Part shown: in pieces, positions 11,571-41,520 of the stretch
Position numbering within the stretch: the stretch's first letter is position 1
Layout of the letters: each line of letters begins with the position of its first letter
Source: Clostridia bacterium
Lineage (GTDB): Bacteria > Bacillota_A > Clostridia > Oscillospirales > CAG-272
Length of the DNA: 64,000 nucleotides
Assembly (NCBI GenBank): GCA_017466455.1
Contig: JAFTUD010000010.1
Coordinates: 62,001 to 126,000 of the forward strand
Direction: 5' to 3'
Translations under genes and position numbers: made by a program
Notes under the pieces: model-generated
What the model was told of the DNA's origin: nothing
What the model saw: the letters and a program-made list of their open reading frames with translations, nothing else
Databases searched by the model: none

Positions 11571-11885
11571 ATGAAACAGAAATTTTTTGTAGAAATCGCA
11601 GGAGTTAGGCTCGGAATTATCTCCGAGGAGGGACAGGAATATGTCGAGGGCGTTGCAAGGGCGGTAAACGATAGAATTAATCAAATGGTTAAAAGCCAAA
11701 GGCATTGCTCGCTTGTAGAGGCTGCAATTTTCTGCGCTATGGACTTTTATAGCACGGGCGAGGGCGATAGCAGAAAGGTTAAAAACCTTGAGGCACAGGT
11801 TGCGCTCTACCAGGCGAATGTAAACCGCTTAAAGAAAGAAAATGAGGAGCTAAGGGCACGCCTTAACGGAAACAATGGACAATAA
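11571..11885 (+). CDS. zapA: Cell division protein ZapA
   Basis: This 104-residue cytosolic protein promotes FtsZ filament bundling. The N-terminal half has the ZapA pattern (VEIAGVRLGI, then EYVEGVARAVNDRINQM) and the C-terminal half is a coiled coil (VKNLEAQVALYQANVNRLKK). The start is placed at ATG 11571, about 60 bp after the promoter; an in-frame extension further upstream runs into the divergent proB promoter and has no homology. The stop overlaps the next gene by 11 bases. Coupling of zapA with a U32 gene is common in Firmicutes. Confidence 0.88.
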   Translation: MKQKFFVEIAGVRLGIISEEGQEYVEGVARAVNDRINQMVKSQRHCSLVEAAIFCAMDFYSTGEGDSRKVKNLEAQVALYQANVNRLKKENEELRARLNGNNGQ

Positions 11886-14082
11886 AAGACCCCTGCCCGA
11901 GCTGCTTAGCCCTGCGCAGGATATGGATGCGCTTGTCAGCGCAATTTCAGCGGGAGCAAATGCCATCTATTTTGGCACGGACCTCTTTAACGCAAGAATG
12001 AGAGCAAATAATTTCAGCCTTGACGACGCACGCACAGCGATAAGACTGTGTCACGCACACGGAGTCAAGGCGTTTGTCACGCTCAATATTGAAATTTATG
12101 ATAAGGAAATTCCCTCTATGCTTGAATATGTCAGCGCACTGTATGAGGCGGGAGTAGATGCCCTTATCGTTGCCGATTTTGGAGTAATGGCTCTTTTGAG
12201 GGAGCTTTTTCCCGACCTTGAAATCCACGCAAGCACGCAGGCAAGCGCGCATAACCTTGATGGCGTAAGGGCGCTTTACTCGCTCGGCTGTAAAAGGGTT
12301 GTTGTCGCAAGAGAGCTTGATAAGGAAAGCATAAAATACATTTGCGATAATACCGATGCCGAAATAGAAATGTTCGTGCATGGCGCGCATTGTATGTCAA
12401 TGTCGGGTCAATGCCTTATGAGCTACGCAATGGGCGGAAGAAGCGGTAACCGCGGAGAATGTGCGCAACCGTGCCGACTGCCGTACACGATGGAATGCGG
12501 AATGAGGAGTTCGGATGAGCGCACACCCCAAGAGTTCAAGCGAAGTGAAGAACGATTGGCTGGTGGTAGCCATGCATGCGACCAACGGGAGTCGCAGTGC
12601 GGAATGGAGAATATTGCTTCGGAATGCTTAGAAAATTCTCATACCGCACAATGTCGGAATTTGCCTGCCGAGGCTCTCGGCCGGAATTTGCCCGCTGAGG
12701 CTCTCGGCTATCCGCTTAGCTTGAAGGACATGTCACTTTCGGGCAGTATAACGGAAATTATAGACACAGGGGCAAGCTCACTGAAAATAGAGGGAAGAAT
12801 GAAGAGCGCCGACTATGTAGGCGGAGTCACACGAATTTGGCGCGACCTGCTTGATAGAAGGCAAAACGCAACCCAAAGGGAAATAAGCGCCCTGTCAAGC
12901 CTCTTTTCAAGGCAAGGCTTCACCGACGGATACTTCAAAAATAAGATAAATAACTCCATGCTCGGCGTTCGCTCCGAGGAAAATAAGGAGCAAACAAAGG
13001 CGCAAATTATAGACACATCACCCCTTGAAAAGCCGAAAATAGATATACACGCGCGCTTTTTCGTTGGCGAGGACGCAAAAATTACCCTCACTCAAGAAAT
13101 CAACGGTGAGCTAAGACAGGTAAGCGTCAAGGCAGACATCGTTGAGGTCGCTCAAAACGCGCCAATGAGCGAGGGCGATATTATAAAAAACCTCTCCAAG
13201 CTCGGCTCAACCCCATACCAAGCAGGCAAAATCACCGTTGAAAAGGACGATAATATAATAATCAGAATATCAAGCCTTAATGCCCTAAGAAGAGAGGCGG
13301 TAGATGCGCTTTTAGGCGCAAGAAAGCCCAAAAAGGTGGACTATGTGTCTAAAAAACCCCAAAATAGAAACAAAAAACTGCGCACCGCAGTCTTTTCCAA
13401 TACCTCGCAAATCCCCGAGGACGCAGGCGAATATTTTGACAGAATATATGTTCCGCCCTACTTCTACGACGGCGAGAACGGCGTAAACGGAGTTTGCTTC
13501 CCGCCAATAGTCCTTGACAGAGAGTGGAAGGATCTGATTTCTATTCTTGAAACATCAAGGAGCTTGGGCGCGAAATATGCGCTTGTCACTAATATCGGAC
13601 AAATAAAAATCGCTAAGGAAATGGGCTTTACCGTGGCGTGCGATTTCAGATTTAACGCATTTAACCGACACACCACCGAGTATTTGTACTCACTCGGCGT
13701 TGAAAATGTAATCCTCTCCCCCGAGCTAAGCCTGCCACAGGCAAGGAATATTGTAAATGGCGCGCTTGTCGCATACGGAAAATTCCCCGTTATGACAACC
13801 TTTAAATGTATTCGGGGCGGGCGTGGAGCCTGCAATAAGCAATGCTCGGGCTACCTGAGCGACAGAACAGGCGCAAAAATGTTCTTTGAGGGCGAATACG
13901 GTCACCATACCGTAATCTATAATAGCGTGCCTATCTATATGGCGGATAAGGCGGAGCAGCTTGCCCCCTTCTCGTGCCATTTCATATTCAGTGATGAAAG
14001 CGCGCAGGAGTGCGAAAGCATCATAACCGCATATAAAAACGGCACTCCGACAAGCGAAAAAATTAGGAGAATAAAACAATGA
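11875..14082 (+). CDS. U32 family peptidase/hydroxylase (RlhA-like, DUF3656) with an in-frame repeat insertion
   Basis: U32 proteins of this long type act in the cytosol; characterised relatives hydroxylate rRNA or tRNA bases with an Fe-S cluster held by conserved cysteines. Seen here: ELLSPAQDMDALVSAISAGANAIYFG at the start (shown as separate family strands), the cysteine-bearing GNRGECAQPCR near residue 200, YPLSLKDMSL, LKIEGRMKS, and a C-terminal cysteine cluster RGGRGACNKQC. The protein has 735 residues. Residues 207-278 are encoded by a copy of the dispersed repeat and split the normally adjacent CRLPYTM and YPLSLKD segments; without it the length would be about 663, typical for the family. 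It overlaps zapA and maf, so all four genes form one operon. Whether the insert disturbs folding is unknown. Confidence 0.92.
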   Translation: MDNKRPLPELLSPAQDMDALVSAISAGANAIYFGTDLFNARMRANNFSLDDARTAIRLCHAHGVKAFVTLNIEIYDKEIPSMLEYVSALYEAGVDALIVADFGVMALLRELFPDLEIHASTQASAHNLDGVRALYSLGCKRVVVARELDKESIKYICDNTDAEIEMFVHGAHCMSMSGQCLMSYAMGGRSGNRGECAQPCRLPYTMECGMRSSDERTPQEFKRSEERLAGGSHACDQRESQCGMENIASECLENSHTAQCRNLPAEALGRNLPAEALGYPLSLKDMSLSGSITEIIDTGASSLKIEGRMKSADYVGGVTRIWRDLLDRRQNATQREISALSSLFSRQGFTDGYFKNKINNSMLGVRSEENKEQTKAQIIDTSPLEKPKIDIHARFFVGEDAKITLTQEINGELRQVSVKADIVEVAQNAPMSEGDIIKNLSKLGSTPYQAGKITVEKDDNIIIRISSLNALRREAVDALLGARKPKKVDYVSKKPQNRNKKLRTAVFSNTSQIPEDAGEYFDRIYVPPYFYDGENGVNGVCFPPIVLDREWKDLISILETSRSLGAKYALVTNIGQIKIAKEMGFTVACDFRFNAFNRHTTEYLYSLGVENVILSPELSLPQARNIVNGALVAYGKFPVMTTFKCIRGGRGACNKQCSGYLSDRTGAKMFFEGEYGHHTVIYNSVPIYMADKAEQLAPFSCHFIFSDESAQECESIITAYKNGTPTSEKIRRIKQ
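12493..12708 (+). repeat. Dispersed repeat copy A, inserted in frame in the U32 gene
   Basis: 216 bp (72 codons, no stop) match the intergenic repeat family. It starts with the heptamer-like GGAATGAGGAGTTCGGATG, continues with the GATTGGCTGGTGGTAGCCA/TGCATGCGACC...GGGAGTCGC module, then ATTGCTTCGGAATGC and a CACAATGTCGGAATTTGCC module. It ends with two tandem GGAATTTGCC..GAGGCTCTCGG units that read as NLPAEALG twice. The length is a multiple of three, and the reading frame encodes LAGGSHACDQRESQC across the hairpin module. Confidence 0.88.
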
Positions 14083-14642: not shown

Positions 14643-15307
14643 CAAAAAAAGAGAAAAAGGAAATAATGGCGCAGACCGTTTCAAAGCTTAAGGAGCGCTA
14701 TCCCGACGCAAAATGCTCTCTTGAATACGAGGGCGATGCGTGGAAGCTCCTCGTAATGGGTCGCTTAAGCGCACAATGCACCGATGAAAGAGTAAATATT
14801 GTCTGCCGTGACCTATTCAAGGCGTTTCCAACCGCTAAGGAAATGGCAAGCGCACCGCTTAGCGAGATTGAGGAGCTTATAAAATCCTGCGGTCTTTATA
14901 AAATGAAGGCAAAGAATATAAAGGACGCCTCAATCCGCCTGATAAACGACTATAACGGACACCTTCCCGATACAATGGAGGAGCTTTTGAAATTCGAGGG
15001 CGTAGGGCGTAAGATAGCCAACCTTCTTTTGGGAGATTTGTTCGGTAAGCCCGCAATCGTTGCCGATACACACTGTATGCGTATTTGCGGAAGGCTCGGC
15101 ATGTATCGTGACGGAATGAAGGACCCATATAAAACGGAGCAAATCTTGTCCGAAATCGTAGAGCCGAGCGAGCAAAGCGACCTTTGCCACCGCCTCGTGC
15201 TTTTCGGCAGAGATATCTGCACCGCAAGAAGCCCAAAATGCAACCTTTGCCCGCTTTTTGCTATATGCAAAAAGAGTTCGGAGTTCGGAATGCGGAGTTC
15301 GGAATGA
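14639..15307 (+). CDS. nth: Endonuclease III, C-terminus encoded by repeat sequence
   Basis: This bifunctional DNA glycosylase/AP lyase removes oxidised pyrimidines. Visible features: the helix-hairpin-helix with catalytic Lys (FEGVGRKIANLLLG), the catalytic Asp in IVADTHCMRI, and the Fe-S loop C-X6-C-X2-C-X5-C (CTARSPKCNLCPLFAIC). Directly after the last cysteine, the final residues KKSSEFGMRSSE are written by TTCGGAR heptamers of the dispersed repeat, so the natural stop was probably replaced by one supplied by the repeat. Length 222 residues; last gene of the zapA operon. Confidence 0.95.
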   Translation: MTKKEKKEIMAQTVSKLKERYPDAKCSLEYEGDAWKLLVMGRLSAQCTDERVNIVCRDLFKAFPTAKEMASAPLSEIEELIKSCGLYKMKAKNIKDASIRLINDYNGHLPDTMEELLKFEGVGRKIANLLLGDLFGKPAIVADTHCMRICGRLGMYRDGMKDPYKTEQILSEIVEPSEQSDLCHRLVLFGRDICTARSPKCNLCPLFAICKKSSEFGMRSSE

Positions 15308-15450
15308 TAAGTTAGAATATTGCTTCGGGGCGCGTAGAAACGATTTACACTAAACAAAGGCGGAATTTGCCACCCGAGGCACTCGGGGCTTCGGGGCGTG
15401 TAGAAACAACTCCTACTACACAATGTCGGAGTTTGCCCACAGGGCTTCCC
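15273..15450 (+). repeat. Dispersed repeat copy B
   Basis: It begins inside the end of nth with heptamers (GTTCGGAGTTCGGAATGCGG), then has two successive GC-rich modules of the form TTGCTTCGGGGCGCGTAGAAAC...CGGAATTTGCC (about 15318-15380 and 15390-15440). It lacks the TAGCCATGCATGCGACC hairpin module of other copies. Confidence 0.8.
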
Positions 15451-15457
15451 TGTCGCA

Positions 15458-15493: not shown

Positions 15494-18400
15494 TTATACG
15501 GTTGGAATTTCGTATTCCTTTATATTTTCGGGCAAAGCCACGGGAGTCATAACATTAGTAAGATTTACGGTGTGGAGCTTGCCGTCAGTCTTTGTAACTG
15601 TGCTTACGACAGGAGCGCTTTCGCCAACTGCGTATTGCTTTTGGATAAGCTGAACATCGTTCTTTCCGTCAAATATGTAAGCAAAGATTGAAAGCTCAAG
15701 CCCTGCGAGATTTGTATTCTCAGGGAAGTTAATCATACAGCTGATCTCGGAGTATGTAAATACATCAATGTCAACCTGTAAGAAGCCCTTTGTAGCATTT
15801 ACATCGCCACCATCAAAGAACGCGTCGCCAAGATACTTAGGATTGAGAATAGCAAGACCGATAACAAGGTCCTCATTGTAGAGGTTGTATTCGTTAAGCG
15901 CCGCGATATCAATGTGGAATCCGCTTTGAAGACCGAGCGCGCCGTCACCGTTTTCCTTAAACGAATAGCCCTTATGAGTGATTATCGGTTTTATTGTTTC
16001 ACTGCCGAATTCTTCACCGCAGAAACGCAGACAAATTTGCGATTTAACACCGTCTTTGTCGTAACCGTTTGCGTAAGTTACGGAAATTGCAAGGTCGTGA
16101 CCGTCAAACTCGTCAAGGATGACGATGTTGTCAAGAGTATAAGTCGTTGCCTCGGTGCTTTCTTTTGTGTAAACCTTGTATGTCGCGCCGTAATTGATAA
16201 CTCCGCAAGGACAGTCGGTAATGTATCCGATATATCCGTTTTCAAGGCAGGTTTCGTTCTTTGTGTAAGGCGTATGAGCGTGGGCAATTCCCGAATAAAT
16301 GGTGTAAGCGCTCAATGATGATTGAAGCGAGGTAACGTTCGTGCTCATCGTGTAGAGAACAACGTTTGTTCTACTGTTAAATGCGTTTGTTGGAATTGTC
16401 AAATTACCCGTTGCATGCGAGTAGATTGTAAGAACGTTGTCGGTTGCGGAATAGAGTTTGAACTCCTCACTGCTAAACGAGGTAACTCCCATAAGAACAA
16501 CTGTTTTAAGCGCAGGGCAGTTCTCAAAGATTCCCTTGCGAAGTGAGGTAACGCACGACGGCAGGTAAACGTTTTCAAGAGATGTGCACGACTTGAAGGG
16601 GCAATCTCCCGTGAAGGTGATTGAAACTGTGCTGTCGGGGAAGACAAGGTTTTTAAGCGCCTTAGAATCAGAAAACGCGCTTGCGCCAAACGAGAGTGAA
16701 CAACCTTCGCCAATGCTAAATGTCGCTAAGGCGTTTGAACCGCTGAACGAATCCTGACCGAAACTTACGGTTGATGAATCTCCGATTGTTAGCGAGGTAT
16801 AGTTTTGGTTCTTATAAAAACTGCGAGATCCAAAGGTTACGTTGCAGTTATTTCCAATTGTAAACGTTCTAAGACCGCCAAGCCAACTGAAAGAACTATC
16901 GGCAAAGTTAACCGTTGCGCCGTCGCCGATTTCGATTTTGCTAATGGAGTTCATCGCTCCCTTAAAATTCGTTCTTGCGAAGTTTACGTTTGCTCCTTTA
17001 CCGATAATAAACTCCGTAACCGCCTTAGTGTTGTTGGTAAAGCAATCGTATGAGGTGGGGAAAAGCACCGTTGCGCCGTCAGCAATTACGACCGAGGTGA
17101 GTTTAGAGGTCGAGTTGAACGCGTCGGACTGCGGTAGCGTTCCGTCACCGAGTATAACCTGTAAAACGTAAGAGTTGCTACCAAACGAATCGGTTGCGAG
17201 GATTAAATCCTTCGTGAGTGAGAAGTCGTAAATTTCTACCGCACGGGTATTTGAAAATTGATAACCGACGTGGTTGAAACCAAACGGAACGATAATTTTA
17301 CGAACACTGCTAATGCCGTATACAGTTCCGCCGTAAGTGAATTCCGCGTTGAGTCCTGTAATAGACGCTATTTGTGTTTCTTCATCAAAGGTTGATGTAA
17401 AAATCAACGAGGCAAGAAGCGAAATTTCCGTTCCGTCCTCTAAAACGACTGTCATCATAGCGCCCGCAGGGTCAAGACGGTAGTCAAACTCGGTGTAATA
17501 TTCACAATTTGCGCAGTCGAGTCTTTTAGTGCCAAGCGACGTGTATGTTGCTTCAAGCGGATAAGTAGCGATAGACAAATCGTGTCCGGGCGCTACGGTA
17601 ACGGTAACTGTGAACACCTCGGAGCATCTTTGACACGTATACGTTTTTGTTTCGTCCTGTGTGCAACCAAGAATTGTTGACGATACAAGGTCATCCTCGG
17701 TATATTCGTGTCCGAGAGGTTCGGTCGTTTGGTCTTCAAGACGGATAAACGAACCGCAAATAGAGCAAGAGTATCTTGTTCCGCCACCTATTAGACAGGT
17801 AGACTCAACAGTTACGCCCTCGTCTTCAAACGGGTGAGCGTTGTCAACCTTGAGAGCCTCGGAACGATAGTTTGAACCGTTGCGGAGCAACATAATCATC
17901 TCGCCCGAGCAAAAATATGCGGTTATTGCGTTGCTTGCTTGATAATACCAGTTCTTTCCGTCAATTACTCCGGCGGATGTGTTGGAGTTTGGGCTGTCGC
18001 TTCTAACGGCGAGAACGAGCGTTTTGTCGGTATTATCTACGTCTGTGGAAAGATCTGTTCCGGTTAGCGAATCGGTAAGAGCGTAAGCCCACTGTCCGTC
18101 GATAAGTTTTGTTTCAACTTGCTTAACGGATGAACCGCCCGCTTTAAAGTGAATGTCACTTGCGGAGTTTTTGGTAAAATAGAATTTAAAACTAATGCTT
18201 GATACACCTTGATCGACACGAACGCTCGTCATTTCTCCAAGGAAAACGAGAGTCAAAAGATTGTTCTTGTGCGAGGCGTTATCGTTGAACGAATATTGAG
18301 ATGCAAATTTAGTAAGCCCCTCGGGGAAAACGAGAACGTCGTTTTGAATTGCGCATCCACTCAAAAAGTGAGATGAACCTTCATTATTTGCGTTATTACC

Positions 18401-18886
18401 TATTTGAATGAGGTTTTCGGGCATATAGGGATCGAGATTTCCGTTCTCGTCAACGAAAGAAAACGTTCCGCATTTATAGAAAACAGTGTCCCCAATCACC
18501 TCAATACTGTCAGGCAAGCAAGCCTTTGAAAGTGTAGAATATTCCTTTAAAAAGTTATTTTCAAGATGAGTAACACCGTCGGGAATGTAAATCGCCGTCA
18601 TTGATGTCTTTAAGGTGTAGTCCGTTCCGTCAACGTTGACGGTAGTGTTAACACCCGTAAGTTTTAGGGAATAAGGATCGGTTTTCAAGTTGTAGGTAAA
18701 TAAATCCTTGAACTTTACGGTAGCGTCAAATTCATTCGTTCCGTCGGTCAAGGTAATCTTGACGTCAAGATTTGTTAGCGCGTCGTCGCTAAGTTGAGTG
18801 TATTCGTGCTTTGCGCTTACGCTGATAGCAAGCAAACAGCACAAAACCGCCATCATAGCCACGATTAAAAGAAGCTTCTTCTTCAT
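15494..18886 (-). CDS. BspA-like leucine-rich repeat surface protein (1130 residues)
   Basis: A cleavable signal peptide (KKKLLLIVAMMAV then AISVSA, residues 1-24) directs secretion. The body contains BspA/LRR_5-type repeats in two blocks (about residues 90-250 and 500-830), with units such as LKNLVFPDSTVSI and LENVYLPSCVTSL. Between them lie paired-cysteine modules (YSCSICGSFIRL, YTCQRCSEVFTV), a pattern seen in clostridial surface proteins. The last 165 residues form a domain shared with two other genes in this window (19090-22698 and 56938-58809). No LPXTG motif or transmembrane anchor is visible, so attachment may use that C-terminal domain. It is monocistronic, with AAGGAG before the ATG. 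Adhesion or host interaction is likely by family, not shown. Confidence 0.87.
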   Translation of the reverse strand: MKKKLLLIVAMMAVLCCLLAISVSAKHEYTQLSDDALTNLDVKITLTDGTNEFDATVKFKDLFTYNLKTDPYSLKLTGVNTTVNVDGTDYTLKTSMTAIYIPDGVTHLENNFLKEYSTLSKACLPDSIEVIGDTVFYKCGTFSFVDENGNLDPYMPENLIQIGNNANNEGSSHFLSGCAIQNDVLVFPEGLTKFASQYSFNDNASHKNNLLTLVFLGEMTSVRVDQGVSSISFKFYFTKNSASDIHFKAGGSSVKQVETKLIDGQWAYALTDSLTGTDLSTDVDNTDKTLVLAVRSDSPNSNTSAGVIDGKNWYYQASNAITAYFCSGEMIMLLRNGSNYRSEALKVDNAHPFEDEGVTVESTCLIGGGTRYSCSICGSFIRLEDQTTEPLGHEYTEDDLVSSTILGCTQDETKTYTCQRCSEVFTVTVTVAPGHDLSIATYPLEATYTSLGTKRLDCANCEYYTEFDYRLDPAGAMMTVVLEDGTEISLLASLIFTSTFDEETQIASITGLNAEFTYGGTVYGISSVRKIIVPFGFNHVGYQFSNTRAVEIYDFSLTKDLILATDSFGSNSYVLQVILGDGTLPQSDAFNSTSKLTSVVIADGATVLFPTSYDCFTNNTKAVTEFIIGKGANVNFARTNFKGAMNSISKIEIGDGATVNFADSSFSWLGGLRTFTIGNNCNVTFGSRSFYKNQNYTSLTIGDSSTVSFGQDSFSGSNALATFSIGEGCSLSFGASAFSDSKALKNLVFPDSTVSITFTGDCPFKSCTSLENVYLPSCVTSLRKGIFENCPALKTVVLMGVTSFSSEEFKLYSATDNVLTIYSHATGNLTIPTNAFNSRTNVVLYTMSTNVTSLQSSLSAYTIYSGIAHAHTPYTKNETCLENGYIGYITDCPCGVINYGATYKVYTKESTEATTYTLDNIVILDEFDGHDLAISVTYANGYDKDGVKSQICLRFCGEEFGSETIKPIITHKGYSFKENGDGALGLQSGFHIDIAALNEYNLYNEDLVIGLAILNPKYLGDAFFDGGDVNATKGFLQVDIDVFTYSEISCMINFPENTNLAGLELSIFAYIFDGKNDVQLIQKQYAVGESAPVVSTVTKTDGKLHTVNLTNVMTPVALPENIKEYEIPTV

Positions 18887-19089: not shown

Positions 19090-22000
19090 CTATACGTTTG
19101 GAATTTCGTATTCTTTAATGCTTTCGGGTAGCGCTACGGGAGTTACAACCGTTGTAAGATTTACCGTGTGGAGCTTGCCGTCAGTCTTTGTAACTGTGCT
19201 TACGACAGGAGCGCTTTCACCAACTGCGTATTGCTTTTGGATAAGCTGAACATCGTTCTTTCCGTCAAATATGTAAGCAAAGATTGAAAGCTCAAGCCCT
19301 GCGAGATTTGTATTCTCGGGGAAGTTAATCATACAGCTGATCTCGGAGTATGTAAATACATCAATGTCAACCTGTAAGAAGCCCTTTGTAGCATTTACAT
19401 CACCACCGTCAAAGAACGCGTCGCCAAGATACTTAGGATTGAGAATCGCAAGACCGATAACAAGGTCCTCGTTGTAGAGATTGTATTCATCAAGCGCATC
19501 AATATCGAGGTGGAATCCGCTTTGAAGTCCCATTTCACCGTCAGCATTTAGCTTGTAGGAATATCCCTTGTGAGTGATAATAGGCTTTACGGTAATATCA
19601 TCAAATTCCGTACCGCAACCTCTTTTACATGATGTGCATTTTACACCGTTCTTGTCATAGCCGTCTGCATATGTAACGGTAATAACAAGGTCGTGTCCGT
19701 CAATTTCATCAATAATGATAATTTCATCAAGCGTGCTATCAGCGCCCTCGGTGTTCTCGTTTGTGTAAGCCTTGTAGGTTGCACCGTAAGCAATCTCACC
19801 GCAAGGACAGTCGGTTGCGTAACCAATGTATCCGTTTTCAAGACATGTTTCAGCCTCGGTATGCGGAGTCACTGCGTGAGCAAGCCCTACATAAATAGCG
19901 TAGGTCGCATTTGAAAGCGAGGTAATGTTTTTGCTGTTCGTGTAAAGAACTACATTTGCGCGGTTTGCAAGTGCATTTGAGCCAAATGTAAGGTCGCCTG
20001 TCGCATGCGCGTAAATTGTAAGCACAGCATCGCTTGTCGCATTAAACGCGCTCTCGCCAATGGTGGTAGCACCCAAGAGTACCACTTTGGAAAGTGATGT
20101 GCAACCGTAGAATGTGTCCTTCTTAACCTCAGTCACATTTGCAGGTAGCCATGCGCTTTCAAGCGCTGTGCAGTTCTTAAATGCGCCGTTTCCTTCAAGG
20201 GTAACGGTTGAGCTTACAGGAATGTTAAGTGATGTAAGTGCTGTGTTTTGGAAGCACTCGGCAGCGAAGGTGTAGTTGCCGTTTTCACCAAAGGTGATTG
20301 TAGCAAGGCTCTTTTCGCCGTTAAATGTTCTGTAACCGAAGTAAACTGTTGCATTGTCGCCGATTTCAATAGCTGAAATGCGTCTTGTTGTACTGCCGTT
20401 CCAATTAAATGTTGTGTTTCTTTCAAAGCGAACATTTGCACCGTCGCCGATAACGATTTTGTCAAGACCTCTGAAGTCGCTGAACGGATTGATGCCCGAT
20501 GGAAATACAACCGTTGCACCGTCAGCAATTCTGACAATTGAAAGCTTGTTCATGTATCTGAATGTGTCACCTTGAAGCTTTACATTGTCGCCGAGAATAA
20601 TTTCGGTAATATCCGAGTTATCTCTGAATGTAGAAGGAAGACTTACATCGCGCGCATCAGTCAGGTCAATTATGGTCATATTGCTGTAACCGTTCTTGAA
20701 GCCTTGATCAATTTGAGTAACGCCGTAAGGAATAGAGAATGATTTTACATCATATGTGCTATATGTTACATCGCCTACAACAAAGGAGCTCTTAATAGAA
20801 CCGTTGTAAATTCTGCACTTATAAACATTATCAATCTCAGTTACCTCATATTTGAGAATATCCTTCGCCTTGATAACGAGCTTTGTTCCGTCAATCATCT
20901 CAATGCGAATGTCCTGCTCATCGGGAAGAATACGGTATGCGTATTCGTAGTAGTCACCGCATGTGCCGCCAAAGTTGGAGCAGGTAAATCTCTTTATACC
21001 CTCAGAGCCGGGAACTGATACAACAGGATAAGAAAGGATTGTGTAGCTGTGTCCGCTTGCATATGCAGTCACAACAGAAACCTTCTCGGAGCAGGCGGAG
21101 CAGGTGTAATGCTTAATTTCGTTTGTCGTGCAGGTAAGTGCGTCAACTGAATCAGGAGCATTTTCATCATATGTGTGTCCGGGAGCAGGCGCTGTTTCCT
21201 CATAACGAATGAAGGAGTCGCATAGCGTACAGCGATATTCGGTTCCCGACGGAGTAGTGCACGACGGAGTTGTAGGCACGCCCTCGCCCTCGGTGTGGTT
21301 GAATGTACCGAGTGTAACCGATGTTGTATCGGCAAATATAACCTCAGCACCGGCACCGCACACGCCATAGTTGAAGATTGTTCCTGTCGCGATTTTGTGA
21401 GTGTTAAACGAGGTGTTAACAGCTATTTCCTTGCAATATACAGGAGTAGATGAGGAAACAAAGCTGCTCGAATTGATGTTGACTGAGTCAGCCAAAAGAA
21501 CCGCAAAGGTTGCATTCGGGAATGTAGCATTTGATTCTGTTACATTGTCGTTAAGAACTACACCGGAGAAGGTGTTTCCGTTGAATGCCCAATAGGGAAG
21601 AGTGATTTTTGAGCCCTCGGCTCCGTTAATAACAAGCACTTGCTTAATATTACAAAGTCTGAATGCTTGGTCGGAGAGTGATGTAAGGGCAGTTGGCCAC
21701 TTGATATAGTCGGCAGAGCCAAGGTTTGAGCTTGCAAAGCAAGAGCCACCAAGTGATTTTACGCTTGAAAGGTCAACGGATTTCTCGCCCTCAAGGTTAT
21801 ACCATTGAACAGTTGTAATGCCGTGGTCATATCCGCTTGAGAATACAAATGCGCTACCATCAATCGTTGTAACCTTTGACATATCAATGTAGAAGTCACA
21901 GCTTGGATAAGCATTATCTACCTTTTGGAAGCTAAAGTTGAAGGCGTTGTTTCCAATAGTTTGAAGATTTCTTGACTCAACTACTACCCTTCTTGCGTTT

Positions 22001-22698
22001 GCGCAATGAGCAAATGAGTACATTGGAATAGATGTGCGATCACCCTTGATTATAATCTCGGTAGCCTGAACCCTTCTGAAGCACTGTGAAGAAAGAGAAG
22101 CGCTTGCAGGAACTATAAGCGTTTCAAACTGCGCGCCCTGAAATGCCGCCTCTCCAACGCTTGTTAGGCTTGCAAAGTTAGGAGAGGTGATTTTAACCTC
22201 ACTGCCGTCAGCGATAAACGCATCGGCATCATAGTAATAAAAATTATTTACTATCGGATTGTTTCCGTTTGTTTGAGAGGGGTTGAGTCCCGCTTGAGCA
22301 ACCGATGTGATAATTGAAAAATCAATAAAGATTTTTTCAAGCGCACCGTCATAGGTGTTTGCAATCATACCGTATGGAATAGCGGTAATGTACTTGCTCA
22401 AAATTCTGAGTTCCTTTACCGTTTTGTTTCCGGCAAACGCATCGTTGTCAATTTTGTTTACGACATAGGTTTTTCCGCCTACCGTAATGGTGCTTGGGAT
22501 TGTGGCAATCTCGGCAGTAGCAGTTTTGTTGCTTGTGTTTACACTTGCCGTTCCGTCGTATCCCTCGTAGGCGGAGGCGTTGTCGGTGGTGGTGAAATAA
22601 ACACCGTCAACCTCAACATTCGCCGCCGAAACGCTAAGTGCGAACAGGCAACACAAAAGAGCCATCATAGCCACAACTAAAAGTAGCCTCTTTTTCAT
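19090..22698 (-). CDS. BspA-like leucine-rich repeat surface protein (1202 residues)
   Basis: This is a larger paralogue of the preceding gene. The signal peptide (KKRLLLVVAMMALLCCLF then SVSA) is almost the same. LRR_5-like units occupy about residues 60-450 and 620-930, separated by cysteine-pair modules (YRCTLCDSFIRY, YTCSACSEKVSV). A third cysteine group TSCKRGCGTEF precedes the shared C-terminal domain. DNA of the last 300 bp is nearly identical to the neighbouring gene although the repeats differ. The start is placed at ATG 22698, which follows AAGGAG; an in-frame start 12 codons upstream lacks a ribosome site and would spoil the signal peptide. The promoter has a C10 tract and a palindrome. 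Confidence 0.87.
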   Translation of the reverse strand: MKKRLLLVVAMMALLCCLFALSVSAANVEVDGVYFTTTDNASAYEGYDGTASVNTSNKTATAEIATIPSTITVGGKTYVVNKIDNDAFAGNKTVKELRILSKYITAIPYGMIANTYDGALEKIFIDFSIITSVAQAGLNPSQTNGNNPIVNNFYYYDADAFIADGSEVKITSPNFASLTSVGEAAFQGAQFETLIVPASASLSSQCFRRVQATEIIIKGDRTSIPMYSFAHCANARRVVVESRNLQTIGNNAFNFSFQKVDNAYPSCDFYIDMSKVTTIDGSAFVFSSGYDHGITTVQWYNLEGEKSVDLSSVKSLGGSCFASSNLGSADYIKWPTALTSLSDQAFRLCNIKQVLVINGAEGSKITLPYWAFNGNTFSGVVLNDNVTESNATFPNATFAVLLADSVNINSSSFVSSSTPVYCKEIAVNTSFNTHKIATGTIFNYGVCGAGAEVIFADTTSVTLGTFNHTEGEGVPTTPSCTTPSGTEYRCTLCDSFIRYEETAPAPGHTYDENAPDSVDALTCTTNEIKHYTCSACSEKVSVVTAYASGHSYTILSYPVVSVPGSEGIKRFTCSNFGGTCGDYYEYAYRILPDEQDIRIEMIDGTKLVIKAKDILKYEVTEIDNVYKCRIYNGSIKSSFVVGDVTYSTYDVKSFSIPYGVTQIDQGFKNGYSNMTIIDLTDARDVSLPSTFRDNSDITEIILGDNVKLQGDTFRYMNKLSIVRIADGATVVFPSGINPFSDFRGLDKIVIGDGANVRFERNTTFNWNGSTTRRISAIEIGDNATVYFGYRTFNGEKSLATITFGENGNYTFAAECFQNTALTSLNIPVSSTVTLEGNGAFKNCTALESAWLPANVTEVKKDTFYGCTSLSKVVLLGATTIGESAFNATSDAVLTIYAHATGDLTFGSNALANRANVVLYTNSKNITSLSNATYAIYVGLAHAVTPHTEAETCLENGYIGYATDCPCGEIAYGATYKAYTNENTEGADSTLDEIIIIDEIDGHDLVITVTYADGYDKNGVKCTSCKRGCGTEFDDITVKPIITHKGYSYKLNADGEMGLQSGFHLDIDALDEYNLYNEDLVIGLAILNPKYLGDAFFDGGDVNATKGFLQVDIDVFTYSEISCMINFPENTNLAGLELSIFAYIFDGKNDVQLIQKQYAVGESAPVVSTVTKTDGKLHTVNLTTVVTPVALPESIKEYEIPNV

Positions 22699-22784
22699 AA
22701 AATTTTCTCCTTGCGGGGTCGAGTGGCTCGACACCCATTATAAAATATTTTTGTAATATCATAGTATCATAAATTATATTATGT

Positions 22785-22874: not shown

Positions 22875-23255
22875 AAAAACGACACGATTTTTTCGCGTCG
22901 TATTTCGGTAAGAGAAAAATGCTCGGGCAAGAGGAAGCAATTCATACTACACAATGTCGGAATTTGCCCGCTTTTTGCTATATGCAAAAAAGAGTTCGGA
23001 TAAGTGACAGTCCAAGAACACGAGCCTTGGCGAAGTGTGATTGGCTTAGTGGAACTTATGCATGCGACCGGAGGGAGTCGCAATGAGGAATGAATTACTC
23101 GATATGTTTGCTGACACAAACTCGATATGTCCCGTTGGGACTCGATATGTTGCTTGCGCAACGCGATATGGCTAACGCCGTGAAGAATATTGCTTCGGGG
23201 CGTGTAGAAACAACTCCTACTGCACGAGGTCGGAGCTTACCCCCGAGGTACTCGG
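22875..23255 (+). repeat. Dispersed repeat copy C (composite)
   Basis: Order of parts: a CGACACGATTTTTTCGCGTCGT hairpin region with TTTCGGTAAGAGAAAAATG, CACAATGTCGGAATTTGCCC, TATGCAAAAAAGAGTTCGG, the CCTTGGCGAAGTGTGATTGG...ATGCATGCGACC...GGGAGTCGCAATG module (about 23011-23089), the CGATATG array, and TATTGCTTCGGGGCGTGTAG...GTCGGAGCTTACCC. The segment TTTTTGCTATATGCAAAA just before the heptamer also matches the end of nth, as if the copy had carried flanking coding sequence from that locus. No gene is seen in 22699-23317. Confidence 0.8.
23098..23179 (+). repeat. Array of four CGATATG units separated by mini-hairpins
   Basis: CTCGATATG occurs at 23098, 23121 and 23141 and CGCGATATG at 23162. 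Each is followed by a different tiny inverted repeat: TTTG-ctgaca-CAAA, TCCC-gtt-GGGA, TTGC-ttgc-GCAA and GGC-taac-GCC. The spacing is 20-23 bp. Constant heptamer plus variable short palindromes is not a CRISPR layout; spacers are too short and self-complementary. Confidence 0.75.
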
Positions 23256-23293
23256 CAAAAATCGGACATCAGCCGTAAGACCGATATCCGATT
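23256..23293 (-). terminator. Terminator of the anti-sigma gene
   Basis: ATCGGATATCGG and its partner in CCGTAAG..GTCCGAT form an imperfect stem on the minus strand, followed by TTTTTG, 25 bp after the stop at 23318. Confidence 0.55.
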
Positions 23294-31289: not shown

Positions 31290-31535
31290 ATGCAAAATTT
31301 TCCGGCGGTGCGGACCGCCAGCCAAGCTCTAACATCGTGCAGTATGAGCCGTTTCTGTACGCCCCGAGCAGTTTTCTTCACTCCGCATTGCGACTCCCTA
31401 CGGTCGCATGCATGGCTACCACCAGCCAATCGCACTTCGCCGAGGCTCGTGTTCTTGGGGTGTGCGCACATCCGAACTCCGAACTCCGAATTTGCGATAG
31501 CACTATTCCGCACTCCGCATTTGCGATAGCACCAC
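31290..31535 (-). repeat. Dispersed repeat copy D (minus orientation)
   Basis: Read on the minus strand: two TGCTATCGCAAAT-type boxes, TTCGGAGTTCGGATG heptamers, GCGCACACCCCAAGAACACGAG, CTTGGCG/CGGCGAAGTGCGATTGG, TGGTAGCCATGCATGCGACC, AGGGAGTCGCAATGCGGAG, then CTCGGGGCGTACAGAAACGG and GGCGGTCCGCACCGCC. This is the most complete copy. A 101-codon frame runs through it on the minus strand and encodes the same LAGGSHACDRRESQC peptide as the U32 insert. No conventional gene is seen in 31156-31597. Confidence 0.85.
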
Positions 31536-37774: not shown

Positions 37775-37950
37775 TATAAATTTCGGTAAGAGAAGAATGT
37801 TTAGAGCAAGAGAAGACTGCTTCGTGGCGAATGGAAATAATTCATACTAAACAAAAGCGGAAATTGGTTGGCGGTCCGCACCGCCTGCTTCGGGGTGTGT
37901 GGAACAAATTCGTACCGCACGATGTCGGCTTTTGCCTGCTGAGGCTCTCA
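37775..37950 (+). repeat. Dispersed repeat copy E
   Basis: It starts with TTTCGGTAAGAGAAGAATG (also in copy C) and has two GC-rich modules (GACTGCTTCGTGGCGAATGG... and CTGCTTCGGGGTGTGTGG...CGCACGATGTCGGC), a GGCGGTCCGCACCGCC hairpin shared with copy D, and GCTGAGGCTCTCAGC. Heptamers and the GCATGCGACC module are missing. The gene-free stretch 37661-37994 is made of this copy plus two terminators. Confidence 0.75.
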
Positions 37951-37954
37951 GCAA

Positions 37955-41300: not shown

Positions 41301-41520
41301 TGCTAACGCAAATTCTTCATTCCAAACTCCGCACTCCGAACTCCGAATTCCGAACTCCGAATTCCGAACTCCGAATTCCGAATTTGCGTTAGCACCATTC
41401 CGCATTGCGACTCCCTACGGTCGCGTGCATGGCTACCACCATCCAATCACACTTCGCCAAGGCTCGTGTTCTTGGGGTGTTCGCTCATCCGCACTCCGCA
41501 TTTGCGTTAGCACTATTCCG
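41301..41520 (-). repeat. Dispersed repeat copy F with heptamer array in a hairpin
   Basis: Perfect 15-bp arms TGCTAACGCAAATTC (41301-41315) and GAATTTGCGTTAGCA (41380-41394) enclose tandem heptamers CTCCGAA/TTCCGAA; the 14-bp pair CTCCGAATTCCGAA is repeated three times exactly at 41341-41382. Then, reading in plus coordinates, follow CGCATTGCGACTCCCTACGG, TCGCGTGCATGGCTACCACC, CACTTCGCCAAGGCTCGTG and a second TTTGCGTTAGCA. It ends next to the ribosome site of the PiT gene. Confidence 0.88.

Follow-up and report, generated by a model that had tools for sequence, protein, structure and literature searches.

The closest described systems are the RPE of Rickettsia, structured dispersed repeats of ~150 bp that lie between genes and also in frame in unrelated genes, where they occupy tolerant parts of the proteins (PMC10969869 and PMC2996958, in the portions accessible to us). 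The latter paper also mentions in-frame palindromic elements in housekeeping genes of Wolbachia and Methanocaldococcus jannaschii (PMC2996958). In addition, REP sequences (GTAG/CGTC) have been reported within ORFs, two Xanthomonas species carrying differing REPs at approximately the same position in recB (PMC3733652, excerpt), and heptanucleotide repeats are described as dispersed 7-bp tandem units of cyanobacteria and other bacteria (PMC4679880 and PMC4692102). Protein-coding repeat insertion has so far been an old Rickettsia curiosity, known mainly from finished events.

Here we analysed a repeat-derived segment within a U32 peptidase-family gene in the genome of an uncultured Clostridia bacterium of the gut; the window is the whole 64,000-nucleotide stretch of DNA that contains it. 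Like the RPE, the elements of the window and of its sister genome, G396, stand in frame in coding sequence (U32 and YgiQ genes) and include a two-hairpin structure. They differ in their occurrence in Clostridia, in the composite make-up of the insert, in the turnover of alleles at one site and in their heptamer borders. This likeness is one of description, and so is that of the dispersed 7-bp units to the cyanobacterial heptanucleotide repeats. The in-frame, housekeeping-gene setting is that of the Wolbachia and M. jannaschii repeats, in other lineages. As with REPs, repeats lie inside genes and the same place is hit in related species, but module B, the main element described below, is longer and has two hairpins. 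A first-pass annotation of this DNA had likened the insert to the coding repeats of Rickettsia, which is apt, but in-gene elements also occur in Wolbachia, Methanocaldococcus and REP-rich genomes. The literature that we searched held no account of in-frame repeats in Clostridia, though one may exist elsewhere. Events of this kind have precedents; what appears to be new to that literature is the clade, the rapid turnover within species, the composite nature of the insert and a heptamer border that is neutral as to frame. Alleles of near-identical proteins make the rate, junctions and tolerance of repeat-to-protein conversion measurable.

The insert and its host gene

The host gene and the parts of the insert are as follows.

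11875-14082, plus strand: U32 peptidase-family / DUF3656 gene, 735 aa, ORF open throughout; host of the insert
12493-12708, plus strand: in-frame insert of repeat origin, 72 codons (residues 207-278), recognised by matches to dispersed repeats
12493-12515, plus strand: short tract of roughly three heptamer units, the final one imperfect, coding ECGMRSSD
12507-12606, plus strand: module B, subfamily B1, a ~97-nt two-hairpin dispersed element coding RTPQEFKRSEERLAGGSHACDQRESQCG (blastn, alignment)
12608-12682, plus strand: module C (direct repeat family D2; copies elsewhere 60-75% identical)
12655-12708, plus strand: 27-bp tandem duplication (NLPAEALG twice), units 12655-12681 and 12682-12708, read from the sequence

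Pfam searches with the 735-aa protein returned Peptidase_U32 (4.5e-79) and DUF3656 (7.2e-20), the latter a domain present in RlhA as well. The RlhA/TrhP-type U32 motif of a conserved E and two C is present, and E165, C173, C180, C196 and C200 are invariant in the 70 aligned proteins. In the portion of the RlhA study accessible to us, E161, C169 and C176 have the same spacing as E165, C173 and C180 of the window protein (PMC6599085). The protein did not reach the NCBIfam equivalog cut-offs; by family it would be of the RNA-hydroxylase type, and the enzyme looks intact because the RlhA-equivalent E and C residues are kept at their spacing. Solved structures gave no sequence match, and the best fold match of the predicted model was the U32 protein Mk0906 (5d88; TM 0.20 on the query). 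The gene order proA-proB-zapA-U32-maf-nth is common to the window, G396, G034 and G002, and these U32 loci are therefore orthologous.

The 216 nt of the insert are in frame, free of stops and matched by intergenic repeats, just as the first-pass annotation had described them; they are shared with direct repeat families D2, D3 and D13 and with inverted pairs I3, I4 and I10. The same annotation had counted 72 added residues. Its coordinates are right, but the distance from CRLPY to LSLKD is 75 residues in the window protein and 8 in the measured relatives without insert, so that this native loop would bring the net gain to about 67 residues rather than 72, with exact edges that cannot be fixed. 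The doubled NLPAEALG is a real 27-bp tandem duplication and stands at the end of module C.

A loop with differing contents

To place the insert among its homologues, we compared the best 120 of 7967 proteins, the window protein being P0001. The loop has 23-78 residues in the best 14 (window protein included) and 8 in the 15th. Outside the loop (660 residues) P0001 is 99.1-99.4% identical to P0002-P0006, and the inserts share 18-23 of 75 residues. In a second species, P0008 is 98.6-99.4% identical to P0009-P0011 outside the loop, with inserts of 78 residues against 38, 31 and 31. At the place where P0001 carries DERTPQ...ESQC (module B), P0002 has EF between the heptamer-coded SS and GMENIASE, and the two loops differ beyond the module B region as well. 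The difference between P0009 and P0011 amounts to seven residues, the equivalent of three heptamers. ECG opens the insert in 13 of the 14 insert-bearing proteins, the exception being P0014.

These inserts are made of repeats that also occur elsewhere. With P0003 and P0006 omitted as duplicates of the P0002 loop, 11 of 12 inserts matched repeats that lie outside U32 genes, either in the window or in G396 (tblastn at E<=0.01); some of these matches were weak, and further ones fell on U32 genes themselves; shuffled inserts matched in 2 of 240 cases. The insert of P0014 gave no match to window or G396 repeats at this threshold. When the P0008 loop region served as the query, five U32 proteins (P0008 included) were found among 72 candidates. 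Judged from these alignments, the U32 loop is a hotspot whose composite insert has been replaced repeatedly at one site. The earlier picture of a single insertion followed by expansion is thus retained for the duplication, which is real, but not for the history of the insert, since the alleles differ. Nor are residues 207-278 unique to the window protein as a long loop, which the 13 nearest homologues also have; it is the content that differs. No homologue from a genome free of the repeat was seen to carry the same segment, and orthologues without the repeat lack it. For P0002-P0010 the comparison is one of protein sequences, and the alleles within a species are resolved to residues rather than to bases.

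In a phylogenetic tree, 12 of the 14 insert-bearing rows fall in one clade (support 100/99), with P0012 and P0014 apart. The tree requires three gains or losses of the insert, two of them forced by well-supported branches, and the site has therefore received an insert on more than one occasion, or has gained one and lost it again; this tree does not establish a single origin. P0008 probably gained its module B, because it is nested among rows without one. The other aligned relatives (P0015-P0060) are without the insert, and G034, G001 and G002 have a short U32 loop. Among the U32 loci surveyed, leaving out L104, L105 and L107, where the motif used is absent, those of G323 (L090) and G112 (L102) have long and differing inserts at the same loop that are unlike the repeats, the G323 insert occurring once in its genome. 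The loop therefore accepts insertions in general.

Where a source is stated, the homologue sequences are metagenome assemblies, and the repeats are multi-copy, so short reads from dispersed repeats could have been joined wrongly inside the U32 gene. We consider such an assembly error very improbable. Both flanks are parts of one U32 gene, and all 14 proteins keep the frame, a count to be read with the preference of databases for intact proteins, through which broken copies may go unseen. P0002, P0003 and P0006 share an identical 50-residue loop even though the source label of P0003 differs (lgn versus ena), and the U32 gene of G396 has its insert at the same place as the window, within the conserved gene order.

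Repeat modules in the window and the sister genome

The modules of the insert recur between the genes of the window, listed here together with a heptamer array at the end of nth.

15274-15307, plus strand: heptamer array giving the last ~10 codons and the stop of nth (tail SSEFGMRSSE)
15314-15452, plus strand: two intergenic module C copies 3' of nth (15314-15386 and 15380-15452)
22942-23256, plus strand: intergenic repeat array (module C piece, nth 3' end, B2, hairpins, C)
22992-23092, plus strand: module B2 inside this array
23081-23174, plus strand: hairpin array inside this array
23184-23256, plus strand: module C inside this array
31379-31479, minus strand: intergenic module B copy
37811-37951, plus strand: two intergenic module C copies (37811-37883 and 37879-37951)
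41396-41496, minus strand: intergenic module B copy, adjoining a long heptamer array at 41320-41382

By blastn within the window, module B of the insert matched the copies at 31379-31479 (83%, 2e-23), 41396-41496 (80%, 1e-19) and 22992-23092 (73%, 4e-7). Rfam searches of the window at the gathering score returned an FMN riboswitch and a tRNA, and nothing else. We reached a comparison genus of 29 genomes through at least 80 U32 loci, found by a contig search with alignment A1; a U32 gene was matched at E<=1e-100 in 27 of these genomes, of which G396 is the closest. G396 was read as 1.48 Mb in 20 contigs, with C5, C14 and C17 masked (N). Module B of the insert was found by blastn at eight places of G396 at 91.7-94.7% identity, with weaker ones besides, and in the G396 U32 insert it is represented by a 44-nt B2-like piece alone. 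At E<=1e-5, one of 395 sampled genomes of G396's family has module B. The whole insert matched six of the 29 genus genomes at E<=0.01, with 18 matches in G396 and one to three in each of five others, the latter over 20-36 bases.

As a separate observation, a simple pattern for the module-B core found it in contigs C7, C8, C10-C12 and C18-C20 of G396 (GC 0.414-0.442) and not in C1-C4, C6, C9, C13, C15 and C16 (GC 0.400-0.436). This unevenness may reflect either regional spread or a mixed assembly.

Alignment of 23 module B copies (19 from G396, 4 from the window) separated subfamilies B1 and B2. Of 506 cells for the 22 proposed pairs of the two hairpins, 94.1% are paired, and 51 cells are compensatory, a number reached in 0 of 500 shuffles and destroyed by sliding the partners; related copies inflate these cell counts. 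The number of pairs with compensatory change, six, was as high in 170 of 500 shuffles, and that of further pair types, nine, in 500 of 500. Single-sequence folds of three copies gave z-scores of -1.2 to -2.7. We regard the hairpins, as read from the alignment, as well supported, but not their exact strength. B1 copies have on average 3.9 open frames of six, compared with 1.37 in 1800 intergenic stretches and 2.9 in their own shuffles; B2 copies have 2.67, compared with 2.21 in shuffles, 12 of 200 of which were as high. Base composition therefore explains part of the openness, and since the copies are near relatives the excess amounts to approximately one observation.

The heptamer arrays are open in a more general way. 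Four of five units tried are free of stops in all six frames, the fifth, GGAATGA, having stops on one strand. As 7 cannot be divided by 3, all frames of one strand of a stop-free array yield a single cyclic peptide (ECGMRNA-like), and, as the common units are stop-free on both strands, such an array is open in all six frames. An array without a bad frame suggests a reason why some intergenic repeats enter genes. Arrays of at least three units number 18 in G396, its U32 array included, and two in the window, where the tract in the U32 gene is too imperfect for the three-unit scan and was left uncounted. In nth the array provides the end of the protein, and the alignment with nth orthologues stops at residue 206 of 222.

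The intergenic array at 22942-23256 also contains a piece of this gene: positions 22963-23000 copy the nth 3' end (15246-15282) at 37 of 38 positions, with one gap. The copy is bounded by TTTGCCC, which is also present in module C, and by a heptamer. On this reading of its junctions, it is host sequence captured by the repeats through short homology.

Coding copies of module B are the exception. ORFs of at least 150 aa cover 84.8% of unmasked G396, and one of the 19 aligned G396 copies lies inside such an ORF with codons on both sides; two others reach into the first codons of a called ORF. The single copy is a B1 module in frame in YgiQ (TIGR03904), just before the last, lysine-rich tail, and the B1 copies within G396 are 92-99% identical to it. 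This spread supports the earlier suggestion that the repeat is mobile. The B1 frame is identical in P0001, P0008 and YgiQ; compared by hand, the B2-like piece of P0008-P0011 is read in another. Among the 120 YgiQ homologues listed, none exceeds 90% identity to the G396 protein. By eye, heptamer-like peptides are present in three of their tails (P0121, P0122 and P0126), and a script flagged P0128 alone. In G396 and the window, 35 ORFs are matched by at least two intergenic stretches, of which U32 (twice), YgiQ and nth were examined; many of the 35 match at an ORF end, where start or tail is questionable, and some resemble gene families. Further coding insertions may exist.

How the loop may be filled

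Taken together, these observations make it probable, in our view, that the loop is a recurrent, frame-preserving landing site filled by recombination through short homology. The codons for a beta-hairpin turn would first have received a short array of 7-bp units, in the common ancestor of a single supported clade. Longer non-coding modules, often bordered by heptamers elsewhere, would then have been swapped in and out, the outcome of which is seen in alleles of near-identical proteins that, as a consequence, differ at the loop. Persistence would be limited to changes that preserve the frame and do the loop no harm, the added residues being tolerated rather than useful. The heptamer is likely the landing pad, and transfer most likely proceeded by recombination or copying via the heptamer and TTTGCCC, not through a dedicated transposase.

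The alternative, in which module B would be a small MITE- or REP-like non-autonomous element mobilised by a transposase and targeted to TGCGGA, with coding copies being those that kept the frame, strikes us as unlikely. B1 is indeed a discrete ~97-nt unit with closely similar copies in G396, the compensatory cells of its two hairpins exceed all shuffles, and TGCGGA flanks both sides of 12 of the 23 copies by manual count. TGCGGA is also a unit of neighbouring arrays, however, and the borders of module B vary among the aligned copies. Moreover, module C, the heptamers and the nth end move as well, and one junction pair lies at short homologies. REPs are accompanied by RAYT, a Y1_Tnp transposase; our transposase search covered this one family (RAYT-type, PF01797) and gave 0 matches in unmasked G396, unlike the control, which was positive in 5 of 14 genomes. 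Recombination at a frame-neutral landing site remains the reading that we prefer. A broader version, possible but doubtful, is that heptamer arrays are neutral docking sites through which loops at fixed places in genes diversify continuously, structured non-coding repeats being exchanged within a species by short-homology swaps; this would make proteins hypervariable without transposase, DGR or phase-variation machinery, with U32, YgiQ and nth as samples of a genome-wide process.

Finally, we considered the predicted structure of the loop. An AlphaFold2 model (70 rows) had a mean pLDDT of 81.3, with residues 209-276 under 50, and placed the insert at a beta-hairpin turn between strands 203-207 and 278-280, right after C200. 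The insert may be disordered, a weak inference because the conserved residues 183-197 next to it also have pLDDT <50 and few rows align at the insert. What was earlier proposed as a tolerated surface loop is a predicted, low-confidence hairpin turn, putatively exposed. The position directly after conserved C200, and the extreme turnover of the loop beside 99% identity elsewhere, would suit a variable loop under selection, one that would adjust either RNA substrate contact or enzyme amount and whose diversity is maintained for this. We hold this to be improbable, since the insert is modelled without structure, its content differs widely, relatives do without it, and the same module stands before the tail of YgiQ, which suggests tolerance.

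Two side observations concern the repeats and neighbours of the U32 locus. Gut-1 RNA, which Rfam files as an sRNA (RF01706), has matches in hairpin arrays of these repeats in the window (23081-23174), in L158 (2850-2931 and 985-1057), in L197 (400-467) and in L228 (1398-1470), several of them beside module B, at 23.8-36.4 bits, where the gathering score is 50. Of the 29 genomes of the genus, 28 have a match at E<=0.01 and 24 have one that exceeds the gathering score, with up to 52 matches in one genome (at most 111 candidates scored); 2 of 14 control genomes match, 0 over the cut-off. From this distribution Gut-1 looks like a dispersed hairpin-array repeat and not a single sRNA gene. In addition, the minus-strand ORFs at 15494-18886 and 19090-22734 share long similar stretches, starts included (D1, D5 and D10), and are probably tandem paralogues.
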